In this document: piece after piece, positions 21,242 to 34,412 of the stretch | Layout of the letters: each line of letters opens with the position of its first letter | Numbering within the stretch: position 1 is the first letter of the stretch | NCBI RefSeq assembly: GCF_016593255.1 | Contig: NZ_AP023212.1 | Location: forward strand, 2,024,001 to 2,088,000 | Direction: 5' to 3' | DNA from: Hydrogenimonas urashimensis | Lineage (GTDB): Bacteria > Campylobacterota > Campylobacteria > Campylobacterales > Hydrogenimonadaceae | DNA: 64,000 nucleotides | Program-made: the position numbers and the translations under genes | The notes under the pieces: model-generated | Database searches by the model: none | What the model saw: only the letters and a program-made list of their open reading frames with translations | What the model was told of the DNA's origin: nothing

Positions 21242-21248
21242 TTCCTGA

Positions 21249-21272
21249 CAGGCCGGGATTTTTCCCGGTCTG
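21249..21272 (+). terminator. Hairpin directly after nosZ
   Basis: A 10-bp stem (one G-U pair) with a TTTT loop begins 8 nt after the nosZ stop. There is no strong U tract after it, so it is more likely a partial terminator or mRNA-stabilising 3' end that would keep nosZ transcript levels above those of the downstream nos genes. Confidence 0.55.
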
Positions 21273-21350
21273 CTTCCTCTTATCCCACTATCGATTTTAT
21301 TATTATAATTATTCGTCAATTTTATTGAAATCATCAGTAATTTCTATTAT

Positions 21351-21392
21351 TTGACCTGTATCAAATAATAGATAGACAATTTAATGTATAAT
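21351..21392 (+). promoter_or_regulatory. Second FNR-type promoter, upstream of nosB
   Basis: The box TTGAC-N4-ATCAA at 21351-21364 is followed, after 22 nt, by TATAAT at 21387-21392. The expected start near 21399 puts the box at -41.5, the same geometry as at nosZ, and gives a 24-nt leader to the nosB ATG. Confidence 0.75.
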
Positions 21393-21422
21393 CAACCCAA
21401 CTTTATTCATAAGGACAGAGCT

Positions 21423-22211
21423 ATGAAAAGTTCATTGACCAAGGCGAGAATATTTACATTCATCGCGTTTGGGCTGCTGATGTACTATTTTGTCATTCCG
21501 GCAGTGTTTACCCACGATGTGATAGAGCTGGTACGTGCGGGAAAGGCCGACAAGATTCCTCCCGTAGCCTACAAGGTGTGGAACTACTACGCGAAAAACA
21601 TATACGTCAGCCCCTCCACACCCAAAGAGGCGGTAGGCGATCTAAAGAAAATGATAGAAGAGGATGCAGAACTCTCTGTCGTCTCCGCCCCTATCTGGTA
21701 TGTGGCGCTTGAAGCGCCCAACTACCCCAAAGAAGCCTTCCCGGAAGGGATTCCCGTCTATTACCACTTCGACGGATTCAGTGGTGACGTGCACGAGATG
21801 AACACGATCAACCATTATATCGGTATGGATCCGATGGAAAGGGGAGCACCCTATCTGCGCGCGCTGGCGCCCTATGCCCTTGTGCTCGTGGCACTTTTAA
21901 TGATCTATTACATGGTGTATGACAGCAAAATCCTGGATTTGCTGATGCTGCTTCCCGTTGTACTGCCTGTCATATTTTTGGGATTTTATGCCTACTGGCT
22001 CTACTGGTTCGGCCACCATATGCACGAGTGGGGAGCTTTCAAAATCAAACCCTTCATGCCCACGGTTTTCGGTGACGGCAAAGTGGCCCAGTTTACGACC
22101 CATTCCTATCCGACGACGGGCTTTTGGATACTGCTGGCCATCAGTGCATTCAGTCTGTTGGCGATCATTTCCAAGAAAAAAGCGCGCAAACTGGCTGCGG
22201 CAGAGGCATAA
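21423..22211 (+). CDS. nosB: NosB, membrane protein of Wolinella-type nos clusters
   Basis: A 262-residue membrane protein matching NosB by position directly after nosZ and by topology: one N-terminal span (about 10-28), a periplasmic region of about 120 residues, then four hydrophobic spans ending in a basic tail. His/aromatic-rich loop WFGHHMHEWGAFKIKPF between the last spans could contact a metal or quinone. NosB has no proven biochemical function; it is restricted to clade II clusters and presumably helps NosZ maturation or electron supply. ATG 21423 is preferred because AAGGA precedes it and upstream in-frame starts lie before the predicted transcript start. Confidence 0.85.
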   Translation: MKSSLTKARIFTFIAFGLLMYYFVIPAVFTHDVIELVRAGKADKIPPVAYKVWNYYAKNIYVSPSTPKEAVGDLKKMIEEDAELSVVSAPIWYVALEAPNYPKEAFPEGIPVYYHFDGFSGDVHEMNTINHYIGMDPMERGAPYLRALAPYALVLVALLMIYYMVYDSKILDLLMLLPVVLPVIFLGFYAYWLYWFGHHMHEWGAFKIKPFMPTVFGDGKVAQFTTHSYPTTGFWILLAISAFSLLAIISKKKARKLAAAEA

Positions 22212-22223
22212 TCAGGCAGGTTG

Positions 22224-23468
22224 ATGCGAAAAGCGGTGATGATGATGGCAACGGCAGCGGGGTTGATGGCGGCCAATGTACTGCAGGAAGCCATCGACCA
22301 TGCCGAACCCGGTTCCAGGCTGGAACTGCCGGCGGGCGAATATCACGGGAATATTTTCATCGACAAGCCGCTGATTATCGATGGCGTCGACCAGAAGGCA
22401 AAAATAGTCGGAGATGAGAACGGAACCGTCATAAAGATCCGAAGCGACTATGTCACTATCAAAAACCTGACCATTCTTGGCAGCGGAAGCGAACATGAAA
22501 ATGTCGACGCCGGCATTTCGATAAAAAACGCGAAGCATGTGACGGTGGATCACTGCAGGATCGATGACTGCCTTTTCGGTATCGACCTGGAGCAGGTACA
22601 CGAATCGCAGCTGACACACAACTGGATACGCTCGAAGCCCTTTTCGCTGGGCTTGCGGGGCGATGCGATACGTCTTTGGTACAGCAACGACAACAACGTG
22701 AGCTACAATACGATCACCCATTCACGGGATATGGTGGTCTGGTACAGCCACGGCAACACGATCGCCCACAATTTCGGGGAGTACAGCCGCTATTCGCTCC
22801 ATTTCATGTATGCGGGAAAGAATGACGTTCTCTACAACACCTACGAGCATAATTCGGTCGGCATCTTTTTCATGTATTCGCAGGATACCGTGGCGATCGG
22901 CAACGTCATCAAAAATTCGCTGGGTACGACAGGGCTTGGAATCGGTCTAAAGGATGCCAGCAACTTTACGCTGATCGACAATACGCTGATCTACTGCGCG
23001 CGGGGGCTTTACATCGACCGTTCCCCGTTTCAGCCCGATATGAACAACACGATCAAGAACAACAGGATTCTCTACAATTCGGAGGGCATCCATTTCCATT
23101 CATTGAGTGTCTCCAACAATATTGTCGGAAACATATTCAAAGGCAATATCGACAATGTGGTTGACGATGACCAGGTGATGCTCCATTCGGTCAAGAATTT
23201 CTGGGACAGAAACTACTGGGATGACTACGAAGGATTCGACAAAGACGGCGACGGCATCGGCGACACGCCGTACCATCTTTTTTACTATGCGGACCGCATG
23301 TGGATGCTCAATCCCAATATCAAGTTTTTCTATGCGTCGCCCATCGTTTCGATAATGAACTTTCTGGCCAAGCTGGCTCCGATTTCCGAACCGGTGATGC
23401 TGTTGAAGGATGACCATCCGGTGATGTTCGAAAAAGATTTAGAAAGGGAGTTCTCCAATGACACCTGA
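22224..23468 (+). CDS. nosD: NosD, copper-site maturation protein
   Basis: Periplasmic right-handed beta-helix protein needed with NosF/NosY for assembly of the CuZ [4Cu:2S] centre. 414 residues with a Sec signal (about 1-17) and CASH/parallel beta-helix repeats from about 60 to 330 (NNVSYNTITHSRDMVVWYSH and similar turns). A C-terminal region with NFWDRNYWDDYEGFDKDGDGIGDTPY follows; I give this only in part as its key residues WDDY and DGDGIGDTPY are the NosD hallmark. It overlaps nosG by 11 nt. Confidence 0.95.
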   Translation: MRKAVMMMATAAGLMAANVLQEAIDHAEPGSRLELPAGEYHGNIFIDKPLIIDGVDQKAKIVGDENGTVIKIRSDYVTIKNLTILGSGSEHENVDAGISIKNAKHVTVDHCRIDDCLFGIDLEQVHESQLTHNWIRSKPFSLGLRGDAIRLWYSNDNNVSYNTITHSRDMVVWYSHGNTIAHNFGEYSRYSLHFMYAGKNDVLYNTYEHNSVGIFFMYSQDTVAIGNVIKNSLGTTGLGIGLKDASNFTLIDNTLIYCARGLYIDRSPFQPDMNNTIKNNRILYNSEGIHFHSLSVSNNIVGNIFKGNIDNVVDDDQVMLHSVKNFWDRNYWDDYEGFDKDGDGIGDTPYHLFYYADRMWMLNPNIKFFYASPIVSIMNFLAKLAPISEPVMLLKDDHPVMFEKDLEREFSNDT

Positions 23469-24261
23469 AGAGAAGAGAAAACGCAGAAAATTCATACAGC
23501 AGATGACAGGGTTGGGTGTTCTCGGCCTTGCCGCGGCCGGTGGTATCCTGAGTGCCCCCTATCTGAAAGCGGCTCCAAGCAGACTTCGTCCACCGGGGGC
23601 GGTACCCGAAGAAGAATTCATCGGCCTGTGTATCAAATGCGGCCAATGCCTGCAGGTATGCCCCTACGATTCGATACTGCTGGAGGATATCGACGGAAAA
23701 GTGGGCGTGGGGATGGCCTATATCGAACCTCGTGAACGCGGATGCTATCTCTGTGAGGCATTTCCCTGTATTCTCGCCTGTCCCAGCGGTGCGCTCAACC
23801 ATGAGCATGACAGCATTGAGTATGTTCATATGGGTGTCGCCGTGGTCCATAACCCGGAAGGGTGTCTTGCCAAAGTCGGCAAGCCCGTACCCGACAGCGC
23901 CATCGACCGCATTTACGAGCATACGAAAGTGCTGACAGAAGAGGAGAAGCGTTCGAAAAAAGTGACCGTCGATCCCAACGATCCGGAAAAAGTCCAACTG
24001 CAGAAAGAGCTGCTTATCAAACTGGAAAAGCATCGCGGTGAGAAATCCTGTACGATTTGCGCCGATATGTGCCCGTTCCATCCCGACCACACACTGGCGA
24101 TCGGCATGGTGGATGCGGCGGGCGGAGGCATGCTTCCGGAAATCAGGGAGGCGTGCAACGGCTGCGGCGCGTGCGTGGAACTTTGCCCGACCGATGTGAT
24201 CAAAGTGATACCGCGCAAAAGCTATACCGACATTTACGGGGGAGGAAACAACAATGCGTAA
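23458..24261 (+). CDS. nosG: NosG, NapG-like polyferredoxin
   Basis: Periplasmic iron-sulfur protein, proposed to pass electrons from menaquinol with NosH. 267 residues. The N-terminus has a twin-arginine-like RRKFIQ followed by a hydrophobic stretch. Four cysteine clusters suit four [4Fe-4S] centres: CIKCGQCLQVCP (about residue 59), CYLCEAFPCILACP, CTICADMCP, and CNGCGACVELCP. Overlaps with nosD before it and nosC1 after it indicate one transcript. Confidence 0.95.
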   Translation: MTPEEKRKRRKFIQQMTGLGVLGLAAAGGILSAPYLKAAPSRLRPPGAVPEEEFIGLCIKCGQCLQVCPYDSILLEDIDGKVGVGMAYIEPRERGCYLCEAFPCILACPSGALNHEHDSIEYVHMGVAVVHNPEGCLAKVGKPVPDSAIDRIYEHTKVLTEEEKRSKKVTVDPNDPEKVQLQKELLIKLEKHRGEKSCTICADMCPFHPDHTLAIGMVDAAGGGMLPEIREACNGCGACVELCPTDVIKVIPRKSYTDIYGGGNNNA

Positions 24262-24817
24262 AATAGTGACAATGGTACTGACAAGTGCCCTGATACTTGG
24301 GCTCGCCGGCTGCGGTGACAAAAAAGAGAAGAAACAAGAGGCACAAAAAAGCGCTCCCGGAGAGATCAAGGTGACGAAAGGCGCAGTGAAAAAGAGTGGT
24401 GCCGAAGAGAAATCGAAAGAGAATACGGGCCAGTTCTACTACTCCTACAACAAAGAGAAGAATGCGACGGAAGAGAAGAGCAACCGCCGAACGACACTCG
24501 ATGCCTACCTCAATATCCGTTCGCCTTATGAAAGAGTGCAGATCGAACTGATGATCAAAAAGCTGAGCAAGGATTTCGTCATCCGATGCTCGCCGTGCCA
24601 TGACGATTACGCCAACGGGGTTATCGGACCGTCGCTTCTGGGCAAGGATGGCGAGTTTATCTATAAACGGTTGATCGCCTTCAAAACGGGCGAAAAGAAG
24701 AATGTACTGATGAAACAGCTCGTCGCGCAGATGGACGACGCCAAACTCAAAAGCATCGCCGACGAAATCGCCGAATTCAACAAACAAATCCAGGAAATGA
24801 GAAAGGGTAGACAATGA
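24254..24817 (+). CDS. nosC1: NosC1, lipoprotein monoheme cytochrome c
   Basis: A 187-residue c-type cytochrome that would carry electrons towards NosZ. The signal peptide ends in a lipobox LAGC (Cys20). A charged Lys/Glu-rich linker (about 25-75) leads to one heme motif, CSPCH, near residue 114, with likely distal Met ligands further on (VLMKQLVAQMDD). Overlaps nosG by 8 nt and nosC2 by 4 nt. Confidence 0.92.
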   Translation: MRKIVTMVLTSALILGLAGCGDKKEKKQEAQKSAPGEIKVTKGAVKKSGAEEKSKENTGQFYYSYNKEKNATEEKSNRRTTLDAYLNIRSPYERVQIELMIKKLSKDFVIRCSPCHDDYANGVIGPSLLGKDGEFIYKRLIAFKTGEKKNVLMKQLVAQMDDAKLKSIADEIAEFNKQIQEMRKGRQ

Positions 24818-25338
24818 TTCGACACATTATCGCTGCAATCGCCACACTTCTGGCCATCTGGGCAATGGTTTTCATGTATCAGCTCGATCGGGAATCGGAA
24901 CGCTTCAAACAGATTCGGGACATCATCGAAAAAACGAAGATGGAGGTGCCCCAGGCCAAAACTTCCACCCCGCCGATTCAGCAGATTGAGGAACCGGTAA
25001 GTGTCGAGGAACAGATGAAGAAAGAAGAGGATGAAGTCGCCAAAAAACTCAAGTCGCTGCGCGAGCGGGCCGGAAGCGCCATGGCGTTCAAAGTGAGCCC
25101 CATGTACAAGCAGAAGTGCTCTTCCTGCCACGGTGTCAACGGGGAAGGTGCGGTCGGGCCGAAACTGATCGGCAGGGATCAGGCTTACGTCTATCAGGCA
25201 TTGATGGACTTCAAATCGGGCAAACGTAAAAACTATGTCATGTACGGACTGCTGATGAAGATGAGCGACGAGGACCTCAAAGCGCTCAGTAAAGAGATAG
25301 GTACGTTTGAAGAGAAAATGAAAGCGGCTGCGGAGTAA
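24814..25338 (+). CDS. nosC2: NosC2, membrane-anchored monoheme cytochrome c
   Basis: A 174-residue paralogue of NosC1 with an uncleaved N-terminal membrane anchor (about 5-22) instead of a lipobox, a Glu/Lys-rich linker, and heme motif CSSCHG near residue 107 followed by GAVGPKLIG. The C-terminal YGLLMKMSDEDLKAL parallels NosC1. It overlaps nosC1 by 4 nt. Pairs with NosC1 in the proposed menaquinol-to-NosZ path. Confidence 0.92.
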   Translation: MIRHIIAAIATLLAIWAMVFMYQLDRESERFKQIRDIIEKTKMEVPQAKTSTPPIQQIEEPVSVEEQMKKEEDEVAKKLKSLRERAGSAMAFKVSPMYKQKCSSCHGVNGEGAVGPKLIGRDQAYVYQALMDFKSGKRKNYVMYGLLMKMSDEDLKALSKEIGTFEEKMKAAAE

Positions 25339-25368
25339 ACCGTTGCCACAACTTTGCAAGGAATAACG

Positions 25369-26280
25369 ATGGATAGATATAACAGCAGCATACGTGATAT
25401 CATCCGAGCGCCTTTCTGGTCCACCTTCTATTACAGGACACACAAAGGGGGCATCCGGCCAACGTGGCGTTTTTGGCGGTGGATTAGTGTTATAGTGATC
25501 AATATCGCTTTTTTCATCTCCTACCACGTAGATGTGCAGCTGCTCGAAGGAACGATGAACGGATCCCGGCTGCTGGGATTTCACCTGATCGATCTTTTTA
25601 CGGCGATCGAAACCTGGGCGGCCACCCATGTGATCCATACCAATATGATTATCGGTTCCGTGACGATCGCCTTTTTCTACATTCTTTTCGGTGGAAAGAG
25701 TTTCTGCGCTTGGGCATGCCCCTACGGTATTTTGAGTGAAATCGGCGAATATTTTCATCAAAAACTGGTGCGCAAAAAGATCATCAAAGAGCGCAAATGG
25801 GATCCGCGCATCCGATTCGCATTTTGGGCCGTCATTCTCATCGTCACTTTCGTCGACGGTTTTCTGGTGTTCGAAGTGATCAACCCGATCGGTATCATCA
25901 GCCGCCTCATTGTCTACGGGTGGAGCCTTGCGGTTGTCTGGGTCGTTGTGATCTTGTTATTCGAGATTTTCTATTCGCGCCGCATGTGGTGCAAATATAT
26001 CTGTCCGGTCGGCACCACTTACAATTTTTTGGGCTGGATCACCGCGACCAAAGTACAGTGGGACATGGACAAATGCGACCATTGCGGGGCCTGCCTGGAT
26101 GCCTGTTTCGAAAACCATGTCATCGAATTCACCAAGCCGAAATATGACAAAGAGCGGAAGGAGAAGGGTGTGAGCAAGCAGTTGGTCGTCAACGGTGACT
26201 GCACGCTGTGCGCGCGTTGTTTCGATGTCTGCCACACCGACGCCTACAATTACACATTCCGACTGAAAGATCTGGTCTGA
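25369..26280 (+). CDS. nosH: NosH, NapH-like membrane ferredoxin
   Basis: 303 residues; with NosG forms the presumed menaquinol dehydrogenase of the N2O-reducing chain. Four membrane spans are seen (about 37-55, 85-108, 145-170, 178-200). Two cytoplasmic Cys-Pro motifs (CAWACPYG, CKYICPVG) are typical of NapH. The C-terminus has two 4Fe-4S motifs, CDHCGACLDAC and CTLCARCFDVC. ATG 25369 follows AAGGA; the upstream in-frame start has no such site. Stop overlaps the nosF start (TGATG). Confidence 0.95.
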   Translation: MDRYNSSIRDIIRAPFWSTFYYRTHKGGIRPTWRFWRWISVIVINIAFFISYHVDVQLLEGTMNGSRLLGFHLIDLFTAIETWAATHVIHTNMIIGSVTIAFFYILFGGKSFCAWACPYGILSEIGEYFHQKLVRKKIIKERKWDPRIRFAFWAVILIVTFVDGFLVFEVINPIGIISRLIVYGWSLAVVWVVVILLFEIFYSRRMWCKYICPVGTTYNFLGWITATKVQWDMDKCDHCGACLDACFENHVIEFTKPKYDKERKEKGVSKQLVVNGDCTLCARCFDVCHTDAYNYTFRLKDLV

Positions 26281-26930
26281 TGGGCAGCATTGTCGTCGAA
26301 GCGAAAAACGTGACGAAAACTTTCATGGGAGTGCGGGTGCTCGACAATGTCTCTCTCTCCATCGCGCTGGGTGAGAGGGTGGCCATGATGGGGCCAAACG
26401 GTGCAGGAAAGACGACATTCGTCCGAACGGTTCTCGGTTTTTACCATATCGATGGAGGTTCGCTCAGGGTCGAGGGATTCGATCCTGCAAAAGAGAGGAC
26501 GAAAGTTTTGCAAAATATCGGTTTCATCCCTCAGCTGCCCCCGCCGGTGAAGCTGAGCATTTCCGAACTTCTGACCTTTGTGCAGCGGAGTACCGGCAGC
26601 CCCAAAGAGGCGATCGTCGCCCAGGCGGAGGCGATGGACCTGGACATTCGCAGCCATCTGCACAAACCCTTTTTCAAGCTTTCCGGCGGCATGAAACAGA
26701 AGCTTCTTATCGCCATCGCTTTGGCGAGACGAAGCCGTCTTCTCATTTTTGACGAGCCGACGGCCAACCTGGATCCAAAGGCGCGGGAGCACTTCTACCG
26801 TCTCCTTTCGTCGATCGACTACGAGCACTCGACGATATTCATCACCCACCGTATCGAAGAGATCGAGGGGTTGGCGAACAGGCGAGTCTATATGGATCTT
26901 GGCAAGGTAGTGGAAGATGAGAGACTATAG
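26280..26930 (+). CDS. nosF: NosF, ABC transporter ATPase
   Basis: ATPase subunit of the NosFY transporter that works with NosD to supply a sulfur-containing component for CuZ. 216 residues: Walker A GPNGAGKTTF (about 38), signature LSGGMKQKL, Walker B RLLIFDEPTANLD, and switch His in FITHR. The ATG at 26280 overlaps the nosH stop. A NosL gene and a repeat tract separate it from nosY, unlike the Wolinella order nosF-nosY-nosL. Confidence 0.95.
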   Translation: MGSIVVEAKNVTKTFMGVRVLDNVSLSIALGERVAMMGPNGAGKTTFVRTVLGFYHIDGGSLRVEGFDPAKERTKVLQNIGFIPQLPPPVKLSISELLTFVQRSTGSPKEAIVAQAEAMDLDIRSHLHKPFFKLSGGMKQKLLIAIALARRSRLLIFDEPTANLDPKAREHFYRLLSSIDYEHSTIFITHRIEEIEGLANRRVYMDLGKVVEDERL

Positions 26931-26981
26931 GTCGCGAAGCGGCTCGCTTCCTCAGATGATCGGTGGTTTCAAGGAAGTGGA

Positions 26982-27086
26982 CGCTCATCGCTCATCGGTC
27001 GGGGGAGGCGTGCTTCGTGCGCCGATTCGCGATTTCGGGTTTTTGGTTTCCTTTTCCCGTTTTCTGTTCTCTGTTCTTTTTGTCTC
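26982..27086 (+). repeat. Degenerate heptanucleotide tract A
   Basis: Sequence with 7-nt periodicity between nosF and the lipobox of the next gene: GCTCATC twice at 26983-26996, and GTTTTCT-GTTCTCT-GTTCTTT at about 27059-27079, joined by T/C-rich, irregular units. It overlaps the N-terminal coding part of the following NosL protein. Confidence 0.6.
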
Positions 27087-27495
27087 CATGACCCTCTTTG
27101 TGACAGGATGTGAAAAAAAAGATTGGCACCAACCGGAGAAAATCCATTGGGACAGAGATATGTGCGAGCGGTGCAAAATGGCCATCAGCGAACGAAAATA
27201 CGCCGTGGAAGTGATCGATCCCAAAACCCGCAGACACTACAAATTCGACGATATCGGCTGCGCGATCCTGTGGTTCAAAGAGGAACATCTCGATTGGGGC
27301 GATGAAGCGATCATCTGGGTCAAAGACGGCAAAACGGGAGAGTGGATCGATGCTAGAAAAGCGTGGTATTCGACCAATAAAATCACGCCGATGGGATACG
27401 GATTCACGGCCTACAAAACCAAAGACGAAGCCGGTGGCGGTGAAGTGATCGATTTCGAAGAGGTCAAACGGCGTGTCATCAAGATAGGACGATGA
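27010..27495 (+). CDS. nosL: NosL-type copper-binding lipoprotein (copy 1)
   Basis: Outer- or inner-membrane lipoprotein that binds Cu(I) and delivers it to apo-NosZ. The NosL domain has CERCKMAI (Cys-x2-Cys-x-Met), then FDDIGCAILW, WIDARKAWY and TPMGYGFTAY. The start is uncertain: GTG 27010 places the lipobox Cys (FVTGC) at residue 34, a normal signal length, while ATG 26917 (14-nt overlap with nosF) would put it at residue 65. The N-terminal coding part is made of the heptamer tract, so a repeat expansion may have rebuilt the signal peptide. It sits between nosF and nosY. Confidence 0.85.
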   Translation: MLRAPIRDFGFLVSFSRFLFSVLFVSMTLFVTGCEKKDWHQPEKIHWDRDMCERCKMAISERKYAVEVIDPKTRRHYKFDDIGCAILWFKEEHLDWGDEAIIWVKDGKTGEWIDARKAWYSTNKITPMGYGFTAYKTKDEAGGGEVIDFEEVKRRVIKIGR

Positions 27496-27499
27496 AACG

Positions 27500-27534
27500 G
27501 AAATGAGAAATTTGGAATCGGAAAACGGAAACAA
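27500..27534 (+). repeat. Degenerate heptanucleotide tract B
   Basis: Five consecutive 7-nt units of the form GAAAxxx/GGAATCG occupy the gap between this nosL and nosY. Units share GAAA at the same phase. Confidence 0.6.
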
Positions 27535-27570
27535 AGCGGTATTTCCCGGAACGAAAGAAATGGAGATTTT

Positions 27571-28398
27571 ATGAAAAATCTTGGATTGGTGGCCTACCTG
27601 GATATCAGAGAGAGCCTTCGGGCGAAGTGGTTCTATGTCTATGCCTTCGTATTCGGCGGTCTGATGGGACTCTTTTTCATCAGCGGCATCACCGATTCGG
27701 TGGTGATGGGGTTTACGGGTCTTAGCCGGCTGCTGCTTGTTTTCATTCAGGTAACGATCATCATTCTGCCCATTTTCATTCTCATCACGACGGTCAAGTC
27801 GATCGCCGCGGACCGGGAGAGCAATGTCTTGGAGTATATGCTCTCCTTTCCCATTTCCCTCGCTGAGTATTACTGGGGCAAATTGTTGGGGCGGTTCATG
27901 ACCGTCTTTTTTCCGGTCATCGTCGCCCTTTTTATCGGGGTTGCCTGGGGCCTTAGCCAAGGAGGGGAGATGCCCTGGGCAATGATTTTTCTCTATTCGG
28001 CGCTGATATTTTCCATCTGTATCGTTTTTCTGGGAATCGCCTTTTTCATTTCAACCCTGGTCAAGTCCCACGATGTGGCGCTGGGGCTCTCTTTTACGGT
28101 ATGGATCGTGCTTCTGGGCTTCATCGATGTGGCTTTGATCGGGCTGATGATGCAAAACAGAATCTCCGACGAAGCGATTCTGACGATCGCCATGCTCAAT
28201 CCGCTGGAAGCGTTCCGTATCGGGGCGATCGCGCTGTTTGATCCGGAACTGACCGTCATCGGCCCGGTGGCCTACTATCTTCTGGATACGCTGGGGCACA
28301 CTTTTTTGATGCTTTATGCCGTGGTCTATCCGATCGTGCTGGGAGGGATATTCGCCTTTCTCGGGTATCTGGCGTTTCGAAAACGCGATCTTCTGTAA
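27571..28398 (+). CDS. nosY: NosY, ABC transporter permease
   Basis: Membrane subunit of the NosDFY complex. 275 residues with six hydrophobic spans and the ABC-2 type pattern including TTVKSIAADRESNVLEYMLS followed by PISLAEYYWGKLLGRF, close to NosY family sequence. A GGAGAT-type site lies near the ATG. Together with NosF it would energise transfer of a sulfur species to NosD in the periplasm. Confidence 0.95.
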   Translation: MKNLGLVAYLDIRESLRAKWFYVYAFVFGGLMGLFFISGITDSVVMGFTGLSRLLLVFIQVTIIILPIFILITTVKSIAADRESNVLEYMLSFPISLAEYYWGKLLGRFMTVFFPVIVALFIGVAWGLSQGGEMPWAMIFLYSALIFSICIVFLGIAFFISTLVKSHDVALGLSFTVWIVLLGFIDVALIGLMMQNRISDEAILTIAMLNPLEAFRIGAIALFDPELTVIGPVAYYLLDTLGHTFLMLYAVVYPIVLGGIFAFLGYLAFRKRDLL

Positions 28399-28526
28399 TA
28401 GTTTTTCAAGACGGCAGATGGCAAAATGATTCTGCCGGACCGTTCGGGGCTGCGAAGGAGATGGAAGCGAAAGCCCGTTCGGTTTTCATGATTTGACAAA
28501 ACGAATGCAAAGGGGGAATAGAATAG

Positions 28527-29012
28527 ATGAGACGATTGCTGTCGGTATTGATGGTTGTGGCCCTGGGACTTTTCGCGGCACAGAATCAGAAGGTGAAAGA
28601 GGAAGTGGCGTTCGACCCGGTCTACGGTCTGCCGATTGGAAAATATCCGAAGTTCGAGGCGGACGTGATTCTCAAGGACGGCCGTACCATCCGTTTCTGC
28701 TGCGTCAAAGCGATGCTCGATTTCTACTATCGCCCCTGGCTCTTTCCCGAATTCAAGGTAAGCCGTGACAGAAAAGAGATCGAAAGGATGATCGTCAGAG
28801 ACTATCTCGACGGCACGAAAACCGAGGCGGAAAAAGCCTGGTACGTTTACGGCAGCCGGGTTGCCGGCCCCCACGGTGACGACCTGATTCCGCTCGGTTC
28901 GAAGGTTCGTGCCGAACTCTTCGTCAAACGGTACGGAGGCTCGCGTATCATGGATTTCAAGACGGTGAAGCAGAAAGGTTTCGGCCTGATCGATTTCCTC
29001 GACTCTCCTTAA
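28527..29012 (+). CDS. NosL-like protein lacking the CxxCGM copper motif (copy 2)
   Basis: 161 residues with a cleavable-looking signal (about 1-19). It aligns well with the second domain of the next gene: PxYPKFEADV against KHPKWAAFI, RDYLDGTKTEAEKAWYVYGS against RDYYTLKPVWAKEAWYVVGS, GDDLIPLGSKVRAELFVKRYGG against GNELIPFKEKKAAENFMRDHHG. Where NosL has CPVCGM, this protein reads DPVYGL, so both Cys and the Met are gone. It has instead FCCVKAM about 25 residues later. AAGGGGG lies ten nt upstream of the ATG. Likely an altered-specificity or scaffold NosL; function unknown. Confidence 0.82.
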   Translation: MRRLLSVLMVVALGLFAAQNQKVKEEVAFDPVYGLPIGKYPKFEADVILKDGRTIRFCCVKAMLDFYYRPWLFPEFKVSRDRKEIERMIVRDYLDGTKTEAEKAWYVYGSRVAGPHGDDLIPLGSKVRAELFVKRYGGSRIMDFKTVKQKGFGLIDFLDSP

Positions 29013-29061
29013 CAGAGAGTTAATGCCTCTTCGGTATGATAGTAAAAAAGAAGGAGAGACC

Positions 29062-30222
29062 ATGAAGCGTCTGATTGCAGCCTTGTTGCTTGGTATCGGG
29101 CTTTTCGTCTATGCCGATGCGGCGGCGTTTGGCAAGATGGCCACCAAAAAACCGGAACTGATACAGCAGGGACCCCAGAAGATGTGGTGTTCGGTGTGCG
29201 GGATGAATCTGAAGATGTTCTACAAAACATCCCACGCGGTGATCCTTGAAGACGGTACGAAAAAGCAATACTGCTCCATCCGCTGTCTCGCGGCAGACTG
29301 GCCGAATATCTCCCAAAAGGTCAAGAAAATCCTGGTCGTCGATGCGGCGACGGAAAAACTGATCGATGCGAAGCGGGCCCATTATGTCGTCGGTTCGAAA
29401 GTCAAAGGGACCATGAGCATGACCAGCAAGATCGCTTTCGGGTCGCTGGAAGATGCCCGGGATTTTCAGAGAAAATTTGGCGGAAAAATCGTCGATTTCG
29501 ACGAGGCGTTCGCGATGGCACGGGAGAGTCTCGCCAAAGATTCGATGATGATAGCGAAGAAGAAAGAGAAAAAGATGTATCCAATGGGTGAGAGAATCTA
29601 CAAAAAGATGTGCCGGCCCGTGGATGTGTCGAAATATGCCCGCATCAACGAACTCAAAGCGGCAATCAAAACGGAAAAACTCTGCAAACCGATGAAAGAG
29701 AAGCAGCTTCAGGCCGTGGCGCTTTACCTGTGGGACATCAAAGGAGGACACGTCCCCGCATCGCCAGAACGTACCGCAAAGCATCATGGGAAGAACGAAG
29801 GAAATATGCCCGAAGTCGGCAGAGAGGAGAAGTGTCCGGTCTGCGGCATGTTCGTTTACAAGCATCCCAAATGGGCCGCTTTCATCTACTACGAAAAGAA
29901 CGGCAGGCTGGCCCACCTGGCCTTTGATGGTGTCAAAGACATGATGAAATTCTATTTCAACCCCGGCAAATGGGGCGATTACGGCGATATCAAAAAGCAT
30001 ATCAAAAAAATCGTCGTCCGCGACTACTATACGCTCAAGCCGGTCTGGGCGAAAGAGGCGTGGTATGTGGTAGGCAGTGATGTCTACGGCCCCATGGGCA
30101 ACGAGCTGATTCCTTTCAAGGAGAAAAAAGCGGCGGAAAATTTCATGCGTGACCATCACGGCAAGAAGCTGCTGCGATTCGATCAAATCACCCAAGAGCT
30201 TGTCTACAAACTGGATGAATAG
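29062..30222 (+). CDS. nosL: Two-domain NosL protein with cytochrome-like linker (copy 3)
   Basis: A 386-residue exported protein. Domain 1 (about 35-155) has CSVCGM (Cys43, Cys46, Met48) plus YCSIRC. Domain 2 (about 255-380) has CPVCGM (Cys258, Cys261, Met263). Between them (about 172-235) lies a stretch shaped like a small c-type cytochrome, from MGERIYKKMC to LQAVALYLWDIKGG, but without CxxCH. The ATG 29062 has AAGGAGAG upstream and a 20-residue signal peptide. I infer two Cu(I) sites in one chaperone for NosZ loading. The next gene starts inside its last codons. Confidence 0.88.
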   Translation: MKRLIAALLLGIGLFVYADAAAFGKMATKKPELIQQGPQKMWCSVCGMNLKMFYKTSHAVILEDGTKKQYCSIRCLAADWPNISQKVKKILVVDAATEKLIDAKRAHYVVGSKVKGTMSMTSKIAFGSLEDARDFQRKFGGKIVDFDEAFAMARESLAKDSMMIAKKKEKKMYPMGERIYKKMCRPVDVSKYARINELKAAIKTEKLCKPMKEKQLQAVALYLWDIKGGHVPASPERTAKHHGKNEGNMPEVGREEKCPVCGMFVYKHPKWAAFIYYEKNGRLAHLAFDGVKDMMKFYFNPGKWGDYGDIKKHIKKIVVRDYYTLKPVWAKEAWYVVGSDVYGPMGNELIPFKEKKAAENFMRDHHGKKLLRFDQITQELVYKLDE

Positions 30223-30532
30223 AAGAATACGATATTTCGTGCTCATGACCGCCGCCATGGTGGTGGCCTTGGCGGCTGAGATCACCGGTTTCACTCTCGC
30301 AAAAGGTGTGACGGGCGCAGAAAAGAGGCAAAAAAGAGAGTTTGTGGCATGGGTGCAGCTGCCCGATCTCAGTGTTGCGACGGAGGCGCGTTTTATACGG
30401 TTCCGCACCCTGGCCGATGCCTACGCGCCCTTTAACGAAAGTCCCGAACTTCTGGACTATTTCCCCGCCTCTTTCACCTACGCACCCGCCGACAATGTCG
30501 CCAAAATACCTTCGAAGATCGTGTTGAAATGA
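30215..30532 (+). CDS. Small membrane-anchored protein in the nos cluster, unknown
   Basis: 105 residues, not recognised. One N-terminal hydrophobic segment (about 5-25) after three basic residues, then a polar periplasmic part with WVQLPDLSVATEARFIRFRT and a Pro/Tyr-rich end. It overlaps the two-domain nosL by 8 nt and the permease by 4 nt, so it is clearly translated within this operon. Possibly a periplasmic partner of the following FtsX/MacB-type transporter. Confidence 0.65.
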   Translation: MNRRIRYFVLMTAAMVVALAAEITGFTLAKGVTGAEKRQKREFVAWVQLPDLSVATEARFIRFRTLADAYAPFNESPELLDYFPASFTYAPADNVAKIPSKIVLK

Positions 30533-31698
30533 AAAATCTCTTCGCCTTCGCACTGAGTTCTTTGATGCGGCGGGGGAGCAAAAATCTTTTCATTTTCGTC
30601 GTTTTCACGGTGATGATCTTCATTCTCGCTTCGATATTTTCGATTACCCATGCCCTGAAGGCGGAGATGTTCACGACGCTCGAGGCGCTTCCTGACATTA
30701 CGGTACAGCGGATCGTGGCGGGCAAGCAGACCGATATCGATGCGGGGCGAAGCGAGAGGATTGCGCAGATTTTCGGTGTGACCGATGCGCTGCCGAGGGT
30801 CTGGGGATACTACTATTTCCCCCGGGCGGGGGTCAACTTCAGCATTGTGGGGGTGGAAGCCTTCGGAACCCAGTACAAAGCTTCTCTTGAAAGCGTGGCC
30901 GACATCTACGCCGACAGACTGGCCTCCGGCGATACGATGATCGTGGGCAAGGGGGTCGAAGAGACGCTGGCACGCAACTTTTTCAAGGGCTATTTCTATT
31001 TCGTCAAACCCGATGGCGATTTGAAAAAAGTGACCCTCGCCGGGGTCTTCAAACCCGCCACCTCTCTTGAGAGCAACGACATCATCGTCATGGAAAACGG
31101 ACTGGTTCGGGAGATTTTCGGAATGGATGAGGAGGCGGCGACCGACATCGTCGTCCATGTGGCCAATCCCGACGAGGTGCGCACCGTCGCCCGGAAGATC
31201 AGTGAACTCTATCCCGACACCCGGGTCATAACCAAGGAGGATCTGAAAATCAGCTACCAGAATGTTTTCGATTACAAAAGCGGCATTTTCCTGGCGCTGT
31301 TCATCATCGCGATTTTCACCTTTTTCATCATCATCTACGACAAGGCGAGCGGACTGAGCAGCGAAGAGAAACGGGAGATCGGCATTCTCAAGGCGCTTGG
31401 ATGGAAGATCGGCGACATTCTACGGGTCAAGTTCTTCGAGGCCATCGTCATATCGATCGGCGCCTATCTGGCAGCGGTCCTACTGGCACTCGGCTACGTT
31501 TTCGGTTTCAACGCGCCCCTGATGCGCAACCTCTTCATGGGATATTCGGTGCTCAAGCCGCCTTTCGATCTTCCGTTCTCGCTTGATGGCGGAACACTGG
31601 CGCTGATCTTTTTCACGACGGTACCCGTCTATATCGCCGCGACACTGATTCCTTCCTGGAAAGCGGCGACACTGGAGGCGGACGAGGTGATACGATGA
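30529..31698 (+). CDS. MacB/FtsX-type ABC transporter permease
   Basis: 389 residues with the type VII exporter layout: one N-terminal span (about 17-40), a periplasmic domain of about 210 residues, then three spans near 260-280, 305-335 and 355-380. FtsX hallmark: SSEEKREIGILKALGWKIGDILRVKF. Such permeases work as mechanotransmitters or lipoprotein extractors (MacB, LolCE). Pairs with the ATPase at 31853. Being inside the nos cluster, it may act on NosL lipoproteins or copper delivery; this is inference. Confidence 0.85.
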   Translation: MKNLFAFALSSLMRRGSKNLFIFVVFTVMIFILASIFSITHALKAEMFTTLEALPDITVQRIVAGKQTDIDAGRSERIAQIFGVTDALPRVWGYYYFPRAGVNFSIVGVEAFGTQYKASLESVADIYADRLASGDTMIVGKGVEETLARNFFKGYFYFVKPDGDLKKVTLAGVFKPATSLESNDIIVMENGLVREIFGMDEEAATDIVVHVANPDEVRTVARKISELYPDTRVITKEDLKISYQNVFDYKSGIFLALFIIAIFTFFIIIYDKASGLSSEEKREIGILKALGWKIGDILRVKFFEAIVISIGAYLAAVLLALGYVFGFNAPLMRNLFMGYSVLKPPFDLPFSLDGGTLALIFFTTVPVYIAATLIPSWKAATLEADEVIR

Positions 31699-31706
31699 AT
31701 TCTGTT

Positions 31707-31833
31707 GTTGCTCGTTGGTCGTTGGTCGTTGGATTTTCGTTATTGGGCATTGGGCATCGGGCATCGGGCATCGGGGGCCGTTTCGCGGCCTCTTTCCTTT
31801 TCCTCTTACCGGTTTCTAATTTCCGATTTCCTT
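31707..31833 (+). repeat. Degenerate heptanucleotide tract C
   Basis: Between permease and ATPase genes. Units read GTTGCTC, GTTGGTC, GTTGGTC, GTTGGAT, then TTGGGCA twice and TCGGGCA twice, in 7-nt phase up to about 31775. A second block GGTTTCT-AATTTCC-GATTTCC spans 31811-31831. This is the clearest of the three tracts. Confidence 0.75.
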
Positions 31834-31852
31834 CATGGATGGAGGAAAACCC

Positions 31853-32542
31853 ATGCTGATCGAAGTAAAAAACGTGACGAAGGTGTTCAATCCGGGACGT
31901 CCCAACGAGATGACGGCACTGGAAAATGTCTCTTTCGGAATCGAAAGGAACGAGCTGGTGATTCTCAAAGGACCCAGCGGCAGCGGAAAGAGTACGCTGC
32001 TCTCTCTCATCGCCGCGCTTCAGAAGCCCACATCCGGCGAGGTGGTGGTCGACAACGAGCGGGTCTCCAAACTCCCCGACGATTTCGCGGCGCTCTTTCG
32101 CCGTCACAAAATCGGGTTCATCTTCCAGAAATTCAATCTCATTCCCACACTCAGTGTCTTCGAGAATATCATCACCCCCCTGATGCCCGAAAAGCTGGCA
32201 GAAAAAGAGCTCGAGGCCAAGGCCGAACGGGTCATGGCGGAGTTTTCCATCGCGCACAAGCGCAACGAATTGGCCAAAAACCTCTCCGGCGGCGAACAGC
32301 AGCGTACCGCCATCGCCCGGGCACTCGTCAACGATCCGCCCATCATCCTCGCCGACGAACCCACCGCAAACCTGGATGAAAAGCTGGCAAAGGCGTTTTT
32401 GGAGTATGTGGGGCGCATCAAGGAGGAGGGCAAAACCATCGTTATCGCCACCCATGATCCCCTCTTTTTCGGGCTCGACATGACCGACAGGGAGATCGGG
32501 TTGCATAACGGGAAAATCGTATCGGTGAAAAGTGGAACGTGA
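31853..32542 (+). CDS. MacB/LolD-type ABC transporter ATPase
   Basis: A 229-residue ATPase partner of the FtsX-type permease. Walker A GPSGSGKSTLL (about 37), Q-loop FIFQKFNLIPTLSV, signature NLSGGEQQRTAIARAL, Walker B PIILADEPTANLD, and an IATHDP switch. GGAGG lies 7 nt before the ATG at 31853. Family sequence is of the lipoprotein-release/macrolide-export type rather than NosF type. Confidence 0.9.
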   Translation: MLIEVKNVTKVFNPGRPNEMTALENVSFGIERNELVILKGPSGSGKSTLLSLIAALQKPTSGEVVVDNERVSKLPDDFAALFRRHKIGFIFQKFNLIPTLSVFENIITPLMPEKLAEKELEAKAERVMAEFSIAHKRNELAKNLSGGEQQRTAIARALVNDPPIILADEPTANLDEKLAKAFLEYVGRIKEEGKTIVIATHDPLFFGLDMTDREIGLHNGKIVSVKSGT

Positions 32543-32654
32543 TAGGTGAATCGCTGAAATATTCGTCGGCTTCGCCGATGGAGTCATGCAAGAGTACTGG
32601 GGAGCAAGACGACCGGTCGGCCCCGTTTGTTCTCGGCTTCCAAAGGATGCCGGT

Positions 32655-33614
32655 ATGCTGAATCCCGATGTCATCGCCATTGTGATGCTCGACGCCATCC
32701 TTTTTCTCTTCGCTTTGACGGCATTGGCCATTTCGGTGCAGATTGTGCGCAGGTGGGATTCGGCGGCCACGACACCGCTGCAGTACAGGCTCGAGAAACG
32801 CGCCTATCTCGTTGCGACGATCATCAAATTCATCTTCTACCTCAAGCTGCCGCTCTTTGTCTATTTCATCTATACGCTCGACCTGCTTTCTGCTATCCTG
32901 CCCGGTGCCATGTGTGCGGCGGGAGTGACCAATGCCACGGTCTACGGCATGCCGCTTTTTGTCGTCAAAATCCTCGACCTTTACCTCTTCGGTCTCTGGA
33001 TCGTCGTACACACGATCGATATGCACAAACCGGACTACCCCTTCACGAAGATGAAATTCTGGCTTTTTATTCTCATTTTCCCCTTTTTCGCCCTGGAAGT
33101 AGGGCTTGAGGTACTGCATTTTAAAGGCATCAATCCCCATGTCATTGTCAGCTGCTGCGGGACCCTCTTTTCTGCGGCGAAAAGTTCTGCCGCATCGCTC
33201 TTCATCACTCTGCCCGTGCCGGTGATCCTGGCGCTTTTTTACGGCAATTTCGCTCTGATTCTCATGGCGTGGCTGCTGAAACGCCCGGGGCTGACGGCGT
33301 TTTTGAACCTGCTTTTCGTACCGGTGGCGATCGTTTCGCTGATCGCCTTCTTTTCGACCTATGTCTACGAATTGCCTCACCATCACTGCCCCTTCTGCCT
33401 GCTTCAAAGCGACTATCACTACGTCGGCTACCTGATGTATACCGCCCTTTTTGCAGGAACTTTTTTCGGGATCGCCGCCTGGGTGGGAAAAAAGCTGGGG
33501 TATCCGGCGGCAAAACGGTGGACGCGATGGTCACTGATTGGGGATATTTTATATGTTGCTCTGGTATCATTCTATCCGATCGCTTTTTATCTCAAAAACG
33601 GAGTATGGCTTTGA
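32655..33614 (+). CDS. Polytopic membrane protein with CPFC motif, nos cluster
   Basis: 319 residues, not recognised as a named family. About eight hydrophobic spans. Periplasm-facing Cys candidates: CAAGVTNATVYG (about 93), SCCGTLF (about 164), and HHHCPFCLLQSDYHYVGY (about 250), in which three His precede a CxxC pair. AAAGGA precedes ATG 32655. It overlaps the next nosL by 10 nt. The combination of His and CxxC at a membrane edge suggests copper or thiol redox chemistry, possibly reducing or loading NosL proteins; this is inference. Some VKOR-like proteins also use CPFC-type motifs, but I see no overall match. Confidence 0.7.
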   Translation: MLNPDVIAIVMLDAILFLFALTALAISVQIVRRWDSAATTPLQYRLEKRAYLVATIIKFIFYLKLPLFVYFIYTLDLLSAILPGAMCAAGVTNATVYGMPLFVVKILDLYLFGLWIVVHTIDMHKPDYPFTKMKFWLFILIFPFFALEVGLEVLHFKGINPHVIVSCCGTLFSAAKSSAASLFITLPVPVILALFYGNFALILMAWLLKRPGLTAFLNLLFVPVAIVSLIAFFSTYVYELPHHHCPFCLLQSDYHYVGYLMYTALFAGTFFGIAAWVGKKLGYPAAKRWTRWSLIGDILYVALVSFYPIAFYLKNGVWL

Positions 33615-34087
33615 GACGGTTTCTGATAACGCTTTTAGCGCTTTTTGTGGCAGGCTGCAGCGGTTCGGGCGGCGGCAGCGGTCTGAGCAGTCCGGATGGC
33701 GGACCGGTCGCTTTCAAACCGGGCAGTGTCACCTGCCCCCAATGCCACATGGATGTCAAATCCCTGACAGACAGCACAGAGCTGATCGACGACAACGGCA
33801 GGGTGACGGTTTTCGACGATCCCGGATGCATGGCGCTCTGGATGGATGCCCACGGCATCGATCCCTCCTCGGCGAAAATCTATGTCTATACACGCGACAC
33901 CCATCGGTGGATCGATGCGGCAAAAGCGCACTATTCCCAAACCGATCCCACGCCGATGGGGTACGGCTTCGGAGCCTACGAGAAACCGGCCGAAGGGCGT
34001 ATTGCGTTTAAGGAGATGCGGCTTCGGGTTCTGCAGGGGCTGACCCTCAAAGACCCGAAAATCAGGAAAAAACTGCTTGGATATTAG
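33605..34087 (+). CDS. nosL: NosL-type copper-binding lipoprotein (copy 4)
   Basis: 160 residues. Signal peptide with lipobox VAGC (Cys17), a Gly/Ser-rich linker, then the NosL domain with CPQCHM, FDDPGCMALWMDAHG, WIDAAKAHY and TPMGYGFGAYE. It is closest in layout to copy 1 (same FDD-GC and TPMGYGF features). CGGAG precedes the ATG, which lies within the end of the previous gene. Confidence 0.92.
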   Translation: MALRRFLITLLALFVAGCSGSGGGSGLSSPDGGPVAFKPGSVTCPQCHMDVKSLTDSTELIDDNGRVTVFDDPGCMALWMDAHGIDPSSAKIYVYTRDTHRWIDAAKAHYSQTDPTPMGYGFGAYEKPAEGRIAFKEMRLRVLQGLTLKDPKIRKKLLGY

Positions 34088-34130
34088 CGCCAAAGGCGCC
34101 ATAGAGACAACATACGAAAAAAGGAAAAAC

Positions 34131-34412
34131 ATGGCATACGAACCCGAATTCAAATCGATGATCAAGGCCAAACCGTTGGGCGGATGGTATATCGAACTGA
34201 CCGAAACAGCCACAGGCGAAACGGTAGTCTGCGACAATCTGGACGAATATATGCACAAGATAGAGGAGATGGGACAGGAGTACGGTCCGGACATGCAGGT
34301 CGCCTGGAGTGTGGATCCTACCGTCGACAGGAAAATCATGGATGCCTATATCCTGGAGATACGCGGTTTGATGCGCAAATACCAGGAAGAAAGCGGCGTC
34401 GGCGGCGAGTAG
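34131..34412 (+). CDS. Small cytoplasmic protein at the end of the nos cluster
   Basis: 93 residues, not recognised. Acidic, no signal peptide or membrane segment, single Cys in TVVCDNLDEYMHKIEEMG. Good ribosome site (AAAGGA). The fold looks alpha/beta with a helical C-terminus. Its position 43 nt after nosL copy 4 and before a shared terminator hairpin suggests it ends the nos transcript. Function unknown. Confidence 0.65.
   Translation: MAYEPEFKSMIKAKPLGGWYIELTETATGETVVCDNLDEYMHKIEEMGQEYGPDMQVAWSVDPTVDRKIMDAYILEIRGLMRKYQEESGVGGE

Follow-up and report, generated by a model that had tools for sequence, protein, structure and literature searches.

How copper is delivered to periplasmic respiratory copper enzymes, and how it is kept there as Cu(I), is an open question. 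Nitrous oxide reductase (NosZ) is one such enzyme; it depends on copper delivery, and no other biological sink is known for the strong greenhouse gas that it consumes. In the NosDFY-NosL system, which assembles the copper site of this periplasmic enzyme, the chaperone NosL is coupled to an ATP-binding cassette (ABC) machine (PMC7558416), and Cu(I) binding is established for NosL from other organisms (PMC7558416, PMC6530538). P19-type iron uptake by the FetABCDEF system of Campylobacter jejuni requires a five-cysteine protein with eight transmembrane (TM) helices, thioredoxins and the FetBC-FetD ABC transporter, parts for which a relay of reducing power has been proposed (PMC10783030). Here we analyse a window of 64,000 nucleotides from the complete 2.3 Mb chromosome of the campylobacterotan vent bacterium Hydrogenimonas urashimensis (NZ_AP023212.1, positions 2,024,001 to 2,088,000), in which a core module of five genes (30215-34087) adjoins NosL3 at the end of a nitrous oxide reductase (nos) cluster and encodes a small anchored protein, an ABC permease, an ATPase, an eight-helix membrane protein that we call CPFC, and the NosL-like lipoprotein NosL4. 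We propose, with a probability of roughly 0.6, that this module is an ATP-driven, thiol-based accessory that handles or loads copper for NosL-dependent periplasmic copper enzymes. A sequence-only reading of the window had described these genes as an extended nos module; its observations were confirmed in part, and its interpretation is partly supported.

A conserved unit and its predicted folds

In a survey of 298 Campylobacterota genomes, the permease and CPFC were found in the identical set of 107, nearly always about 2 kb apart. A wider scan of 85,000 species genomes yielded 203 loci, and the best 80 of these, from which composition is described, include Campylobacterota, many Beta- and Gammaproteobacteria, Magnetospirillum, a Holophagaceae and a Stygiobacter bin. 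The usual order in Campylobacterota is NosL, small protein, permease, ATPase, CPFC and NosL-like protein, while in other phyla it is (SCO1), small protein, permease, ATPase, CPFC, TlpA, (heavy-metal protein, CopA), DsbD_2, NosL and NosL. Because this order recurs across Campylobacterota and other phyla, and because permease and CPFC share the same genomes, the grouping goes beyond chance. The gene set picked out by the sequence-only reading is thus a real conserved unit, except that a 93-residue protein lies outside it and the NosL-like gene at 33605 lies inside. The spacing differs in three genomes. In G177 and G196 the two genes lie on different contigs, with the G177 permease at a contig end. 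In G234, CPFC and a NosL-like partner occupy one contig and the permease and NosL genes another (C38, C12; L144, L145), neither part at a contig end; among the cases observed, this is the one in which the module itself appears to be divided.

The permease has four TM helices, a periplasmic domain after TM1 and an FtsX C-terminal domain (Pfam over cut-off, Foldseek), and its AlphaFold2 (AF2) model, with a predicted local distance difference test score (pLDDT) of 87, matches LolE (Foldseek E 4.5e-15), MacB (2.4e-13) and LolC; as modelled, it is therefore a component of a type VII ABC machine. Solved members of the LolCDE/MacB fold shift periplasmic parts and are not known to pass a substrate through a channel. 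The ATPase, whose best PDB matches are MJ0796 and LolD, is a dedicated member of the LolD/FtsE/MacB class in which the Walker A (GPSGSGKST), signature (LSGGEQQ) and Walker B (ILADEPT) motifs, read from the sequence, are intact. The small anchored protein has no family in Pfam, NCBIfam or PHROGs, and its homologues lie immediately upstream of the permease in 54 of the 65 loci outside Campylobacterota. Assignment of the permease to LolCE itself was rejected: it scores 40.9 bits against a family cut-off of 362, whereas another permease of the genome scores 282.

These folds raise the question of whether the module could be a specialised Lol system that lifts or sorts NosL-type lipoproteins from the inner membrane, in which CPFC and the small protein would confer specificity. 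The nearest solved relatives of the permease are indeed LolC and LolE, the ATPase is LolD-like, NosL4 carries a lipobox, and NosL partners are very often adjacent. However, the permease falls far short of the LolCE cut-off and scores well below another permease of the genome, the conserved unit holds a single permease gene and no LolA or LolB partner, and lipoprotein extraction would leave five invariant cysteines and the neighbours TlpA, DsbD_2, SCO1 and CopA unexplained. We consider this explanation unlikely.

Those cysteines belong to CPFC. In an alignment of 49 sequences its invariant residues include C87, C167, C168, H243, C245 and C248, and in its AF2 model (pLDDT 90.8, predicted template modelling score 0.89), which has eight long membrane helices, the invariant residues sit in three loops on one side of the membrane. 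Most loops on the opposite side are enriched in lysine and arginine, which predicts a periplasmic location for the cysteines. CPFC has no Pfam or NCBIfam family and no sequence relative in the PDB, and its model matched no PDB or viral structure at E <= 0.001, the PDB negative including DsbB, VKOR and CcdA. It was also considered as a relative of FtrD/FetA and rejected, as profile comparison detected no similarity (hhalign against FtrD, E 0.5); an FtrD-like match is absent from the genome.

Of the NosL partners, NosL1, NosL2 and NosL3 carry the Pfam NosL domain over cut-off. NosL3 unites two such domains, which differ in type, in one protein, where other phyla have two separate genes. Its N-terminal domain is of a four-cysteine type (CSVCGM...CSIRC), and this type (CxxCGM...CSIxC) occurs at 61 of the 82 module loci with NosL, against 0 of 8 module-less nos clusters inspected, Sulfurimonas copies being the main exception. 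NosL4 has no Pfam or NCBIfam match of its own and is too divergent for Pfam NosL, although it resembles NosL1 (38% over 107 residues against the NosL1 copy of a congeneric genome, G145); its homologues come after CPFC in 32 of 52 Campylobacterota loci.

Among the 65 loci outside Campylobacterota, the neighbours are TlpA (53), NosL (46), DsbD_2 (36), CopA (20), a heavy-metal domain protein (19) and SCO1 (18), and in Pseudomonadota the module is accompanied by NosL, TlpA, DsbD_2, SCO1 and a copper ATPase. This is in line with the sequence-only reading, which suggested that an additional ABC machine, together with a membrane protein of His/CxxC type, could handle copper or thiol redox for the NosL set: both accompany NosL, and the neighbours indicate copper and thiol redox. 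As the module is found next to either copper enzymes (NosZ, MccA) or genes concerned with copper and thiols (NosL, SCO1, CopA, TlpA, DsbD_2), we count its surroundings in favour of a copper function.

Two other functions could be read from the same neighbours. If the module served thiol redox alone, CPFC would resemble DsbB/CcdA as a thiol carrier, serving cytochrome c or the control of disulfides, and its link to copper would be indirect; TlpA and DsbD_2, the CcsA-type haem lyase adjacent in mcc operons, and the CxxC and vicinal cysteines of CPFC would all suit such a carrier. Yet in Campylobacterota the unit is accompanied more constantly by NosL and mostly lacks TlpA, the CPFC model matches no PDB fold at E <= 0.001, DsbB, VKOR and CcdA included, and what the contexts have in common is copper chaperones, not cytochromes, which together make this improbable. 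Alternatively, the unit might rid the periplasm of Cu(I) or of damaged thiols, NosL-like proteins acting as scavengers. The CopA-type ATPase and heavy-metal domain protein in 20 and 19 of the 65 loci are consistent with detoxification, and the haem exporter HrtBA is also a type VII machine. On the other hand, a fixed position at the end of mcc operons and repeated linkage to nos suit enzyme assembly better, and no resistance-nodulation-division (RND) pump, multicopper oxidase or copper regulator is prominent among the recurrent neighbours of the loci examined; detoxification is thus distinctly unlikely.

Linkage to nos and mcc genes

The module is associated with nos clusters but is not part of their core. 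Of the 298 genomes surveyed, 89 have nosZ, and 68 of these also carry the module (odds ratio 14). It lies within 25 kb of nosZ in 16 of the 68 genomes that have both, against about 2% by position alone, which is our own estimate of 25 kb either side as a share of such a genome. Outside Campylobacterota, nosZ is present in 19 of the 27 module genomes tested. In a tree of 54 CPFC proteins, copies from other phyla form one clade (100/100) and mcc-linked copies another (100/98), whereas nos-linked copies are scattered, with about eight label changes needed. According to this tree, nos linkage would have arisen repeatedly, and since the interval counted covers only about 2% of a genome, this is hard to explain without a functional tie. 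The permeases of the module likewise form a clade of their own (100/100 support), apart from P19/Fet permeases and from the genome's other FtsX-type permeases.

The view of the module as an extension of the nos cluster did not hold up, since gene neighbourhoods place its homologues mostly away from nos genes, the outcome that the sequence-only reading had itself named as refuting: 109 of 126 module copies are not within 25 kb of nosZ, 27 genomes carry the module with neither nosZ nor a Wolinella-type MccA, and its tightest linkage is to mccA (47 of 48 genomes). The module is neither confined to nosZ genomes nor required by them, as nosZ is absent from 39 of the 107 module genomes in Campylobacterota and the module from 21 of the 89 nosZ genomes. 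In addition, G145, from the same genus, has a nosZ that is 93% identical and an unchanged nos order, and its nos cluster lacks the small protein, permease, ATPase, CPFC and NosL4; the NosL3 N-terminal domain is absent there, the C-terminal domain is present, and the 93-residue gene follows directly. The module is thus a discrete optional insert relative to G145, and the 93-residue gene, kept in this module-less cluster, goes with the nos genes of the genus. A nos-specific function was rejected on the distribution and on the G145 cluster.

One copy of the module closes the mcc operon in Campylobacter-, Sulfurospirillum- and Wolinella-type genomes, and the mcc operon of Wolinella succinogenes carries one. 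The operon runs from an octahaem cytochrome (seven CXXCH motifs and one CX15CH) through an FKBP isomerase, iron-sulfur protein, NrfD, CcsA-type haem lyase, Sel1 protein, NosL, permease, ATPase and CPFC to a NosL-like protein; the small anchored protein is absent from these mcc-type modules. Compared with MccA of PDB 4RKM, a haem c-copper sulfite reductase, the octahaem protein of the Wolinella genome G167 is identical, with a score equal to the self-match. The module is present in all 48 genomes with a Wolinella-type MccA and lies 9.3-13.3 kb from mccA in 47 of them; in the 48th, mccA sits at a contig end. G167 also holds a second, very divergent module copy (L132, C1:615000-631000) with no NosL beside it and an end branch of 2.33 in the CPFC tree. 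Its nosZ (L158, C1:866000-885000) is split, the NosZ pieces flanking an inserted open reading frame (ORF) of 396 residues.

A portable operon that landed near nos and mcc by chance would be compatible with the 63 of 126 copies that are near neither, and with the insertion relative to G145. It would not be expected to show the strict co-occurrence of parts, the repeated nos linkage and the NosL company across phyla, and we regard neutral hitchhiking as extremely improbable.

Several observations nevertheless weigh against the proposed role in copper loading. A second group of MccA-like proteins (CX17CH) occurs in 37 of the 298 genomes and the module is never nearby; the 11 examined keep the active-site residues and C399 and C495, which, in the numbering of MccA, we take to be the copper ligands. 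The possibility that these module-less enzymes had lost the copper site was therefore rejected, and as they keep the copper cysteines, copper loading of the MccA fold does not need the module, which is linked to a single mcc lineage rather than required wherever the fold occurs. Moreover, mcc linkage is, judging by the CPFC tree, a single evolutionary event, and because many genomes are close relatives the association counts are not independent and the statistics are inflated. In Campylobacterota, 21 of the 89 nosZ genomes lack the module, and 8 of the 27 module genomes outside that phylum gave no nosZ match, some perhaps because they are incomplete. The 27 Campylobacterota genomes with neither nosZ nor Wolinella-type MccA mean that other clients must exist. 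Finally, metal binding and redox activity of CPFC are putative, and the copper role of the module is drawn from context. The second MccA-like group (L160-L170; G111, G046, G175 and others) adjoins another multihaem gene, whose product in L160, the sole one scanned, has rhodanese and cytochrome b561 domains.

Even so, a type VII engine, a five-cysteine membrane protein and a copper chaperone, taken together, suggest that Cu(I) or Cu(I)-holding thiols are handled at the expense of ATP. Beyond gene content, fold class and predicted topology, we infer the following steps. Two permeases and two ATPases would form the engine. CPFC may use its vicinal C167-C168 and its C245-C248 cysteine pairs to hold Cu(I) or to relay reducing equivalents; thioredoxins of TlpA/DsbD type, where the unit has them (in other phyla TlpA and DsbD_2), could return these cysteines to the reduced state. 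ATP cycles of the permease-ATPase would open and close the CPFC site and so drive release or exchange, whereby Cu(I) would be handed to the four-cysteine NosL domain, or the NosL cysteines kept reduced, and the four-cysteine NosL would then deliver to NosDFY/NosZ or MccA. A shortage of copper or an oxidising periplasm might be the conditions under which the module counts most, and this would account for the nos clusters that dispense with it. An ATP-driven module common to NosZ- and MccA-bearing bacteria would thus be a testable candidate for the step of periplasmic copper supply, for which Wolinella succinogenes is a direct test host; Hydrogenimonas-type genomes with and without the module could perhaps be compared.

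Layout of the locus

All ORFs named by the sequence-only reading are present on the + strand in the nos cluster, which is of clade II and runs from the nosZ start to the NosL3 end (18638 to 30222). Their ends were said to be mostly overlapping; this applies to three of six junctions (NosL3/small protein, 8 bp; small protein/permease, 4 bp; CPFC/NosL4, 10 bp), the permease-ATPase, ATPase-CPFC and NosL4/93-residue gene junctions having gaps.

Table 1. Features of the locus, with positions in the window.
Feature	Position	Strand	Evidence
nosZ, B, D, G, C1, C2, H, F, NosL1, nosY, NosL2: classical clade II nos genes, upstream context	18638..29012	+	
NosL3: two NosL domains in one protein	29023..30222	+	Pfam NosL 4.4e-56, two stretches
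Small membrane-anchored protein, 105 aa, motif DLxxxTEARFxR...P..FP	30215..30532	+	
FtsX/LolCE/MacB-type (type VII) ABC permease, 389 aa, predicted 4 TM helices and periplasmic domain	30529..31698	+	Pfam FtsX 3.5e-8
ABC ATPase, LolD/FtsE/MacB class	31835..32542 (alternative start 31853)	+	Pfam ABC_tran 4.9e-37
CPFC protein, 319 aa, predicted 8 TM helices	32655..33614	+	Alignment, AF2 model
NosL4: divergent NosL-like lipoprotein, 160 aa, lipobox VAGC	33605..34087	+	
93-aa protein, neighbour outside the module	34131..34412	+	

The 93-residue gene was considered as a module member and rejected, being kept in the module-less G145 cluster while its homologues lie mostly away from the module. It has no Pfam or NCBIfam family over cut-off, and its own family is represented in 18 of the 200 Campylobacterota genomes searched, for the most part at unrelated places far from the module. 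It is followed by nnrS on the opposite strand. The permease-ATPase gap (31699-31834) contains heptamer tandem repeats, a TTGGTCG-type run followed by a GGGCATC-type run; GGTCGTTGGTCGTTGG has 6 sites in the genome against 0 for the reversed control, and heptamer repeats of different sequence are present in the same gap in close relatives (L035, L036).

Comparison with known systems

The sequence-only reading put the genes forward as a candidate for an undescribed system. A five-gene insertion with an ABC permease and ATPase had, however, already been mentioned in the nos cluster of Sulfurospirillum cavolei, with only the two ABC genes named and without a proposed function (PMC4794192). This insertion is very probably the same module, its ABC genes lying between nosL and nosY as in the locus L147, and it is the only prior notice that we found in the open-access literature.

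The module shares with NosDFY-NosL the pairing of an ABC machine with a NosL chaperone (PMC7558416), but its permease is of LolCE/MacB type rather than NosY, it has no NosD, and it exists both alongside complete NosDFY and in nosZ-less genomes. With LolCDE it has the permease fold and ATPase class in common; it differs in its score far below the LolCE cut-off, its one permease gene and its additional cysteine protein and copper neighbours, another LolCE-type permease is encoded elsewhere in the genome, and LolA was not identified among the module's recurrent neighbours. The four-TM permease with a periplasmic domain also recalls MacB and type VII mechanotransmission, except that the ATPase is on a separate gene and the unit has no MacA or TolC partner.

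By analogy, FetABCDEF (the FetMP/P19 iron system) is the closest working counterpart, in which FtsX-type permeases and an ATPase, an eight-TM five-cysteine protein and TlpA-type thioredoxins likewise stand next to a periplasmic metal protein. The module has neither a FetA/FtrD (DUF2318) protein nor a FetB/FetC-type permease: CPFC and FetA/FtrD give an hhalign E of 0.5, the permeases fall in separate supported clades, the module has one permease gene where Fet has two, and NosL takes the place of FetM/P19. As CPFC and FetA are unrelated by profile comparison, the likeness would be one of plan and not of descent. It is possible, if doubtful, that CPFC founds a new class of eight-helix membrane copper/thiol exchanger, driven by a type VII ABC machine and giving reduced Cu(I) to periplasmic chaperones, and that together with FetABCDEF it represents a general, convergent kind of machine. 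If this were so, an ABC engine, a five-cysteine membrane protein and a thioredoxin would be a general plan for powering metal handling outside the cytoplasm.

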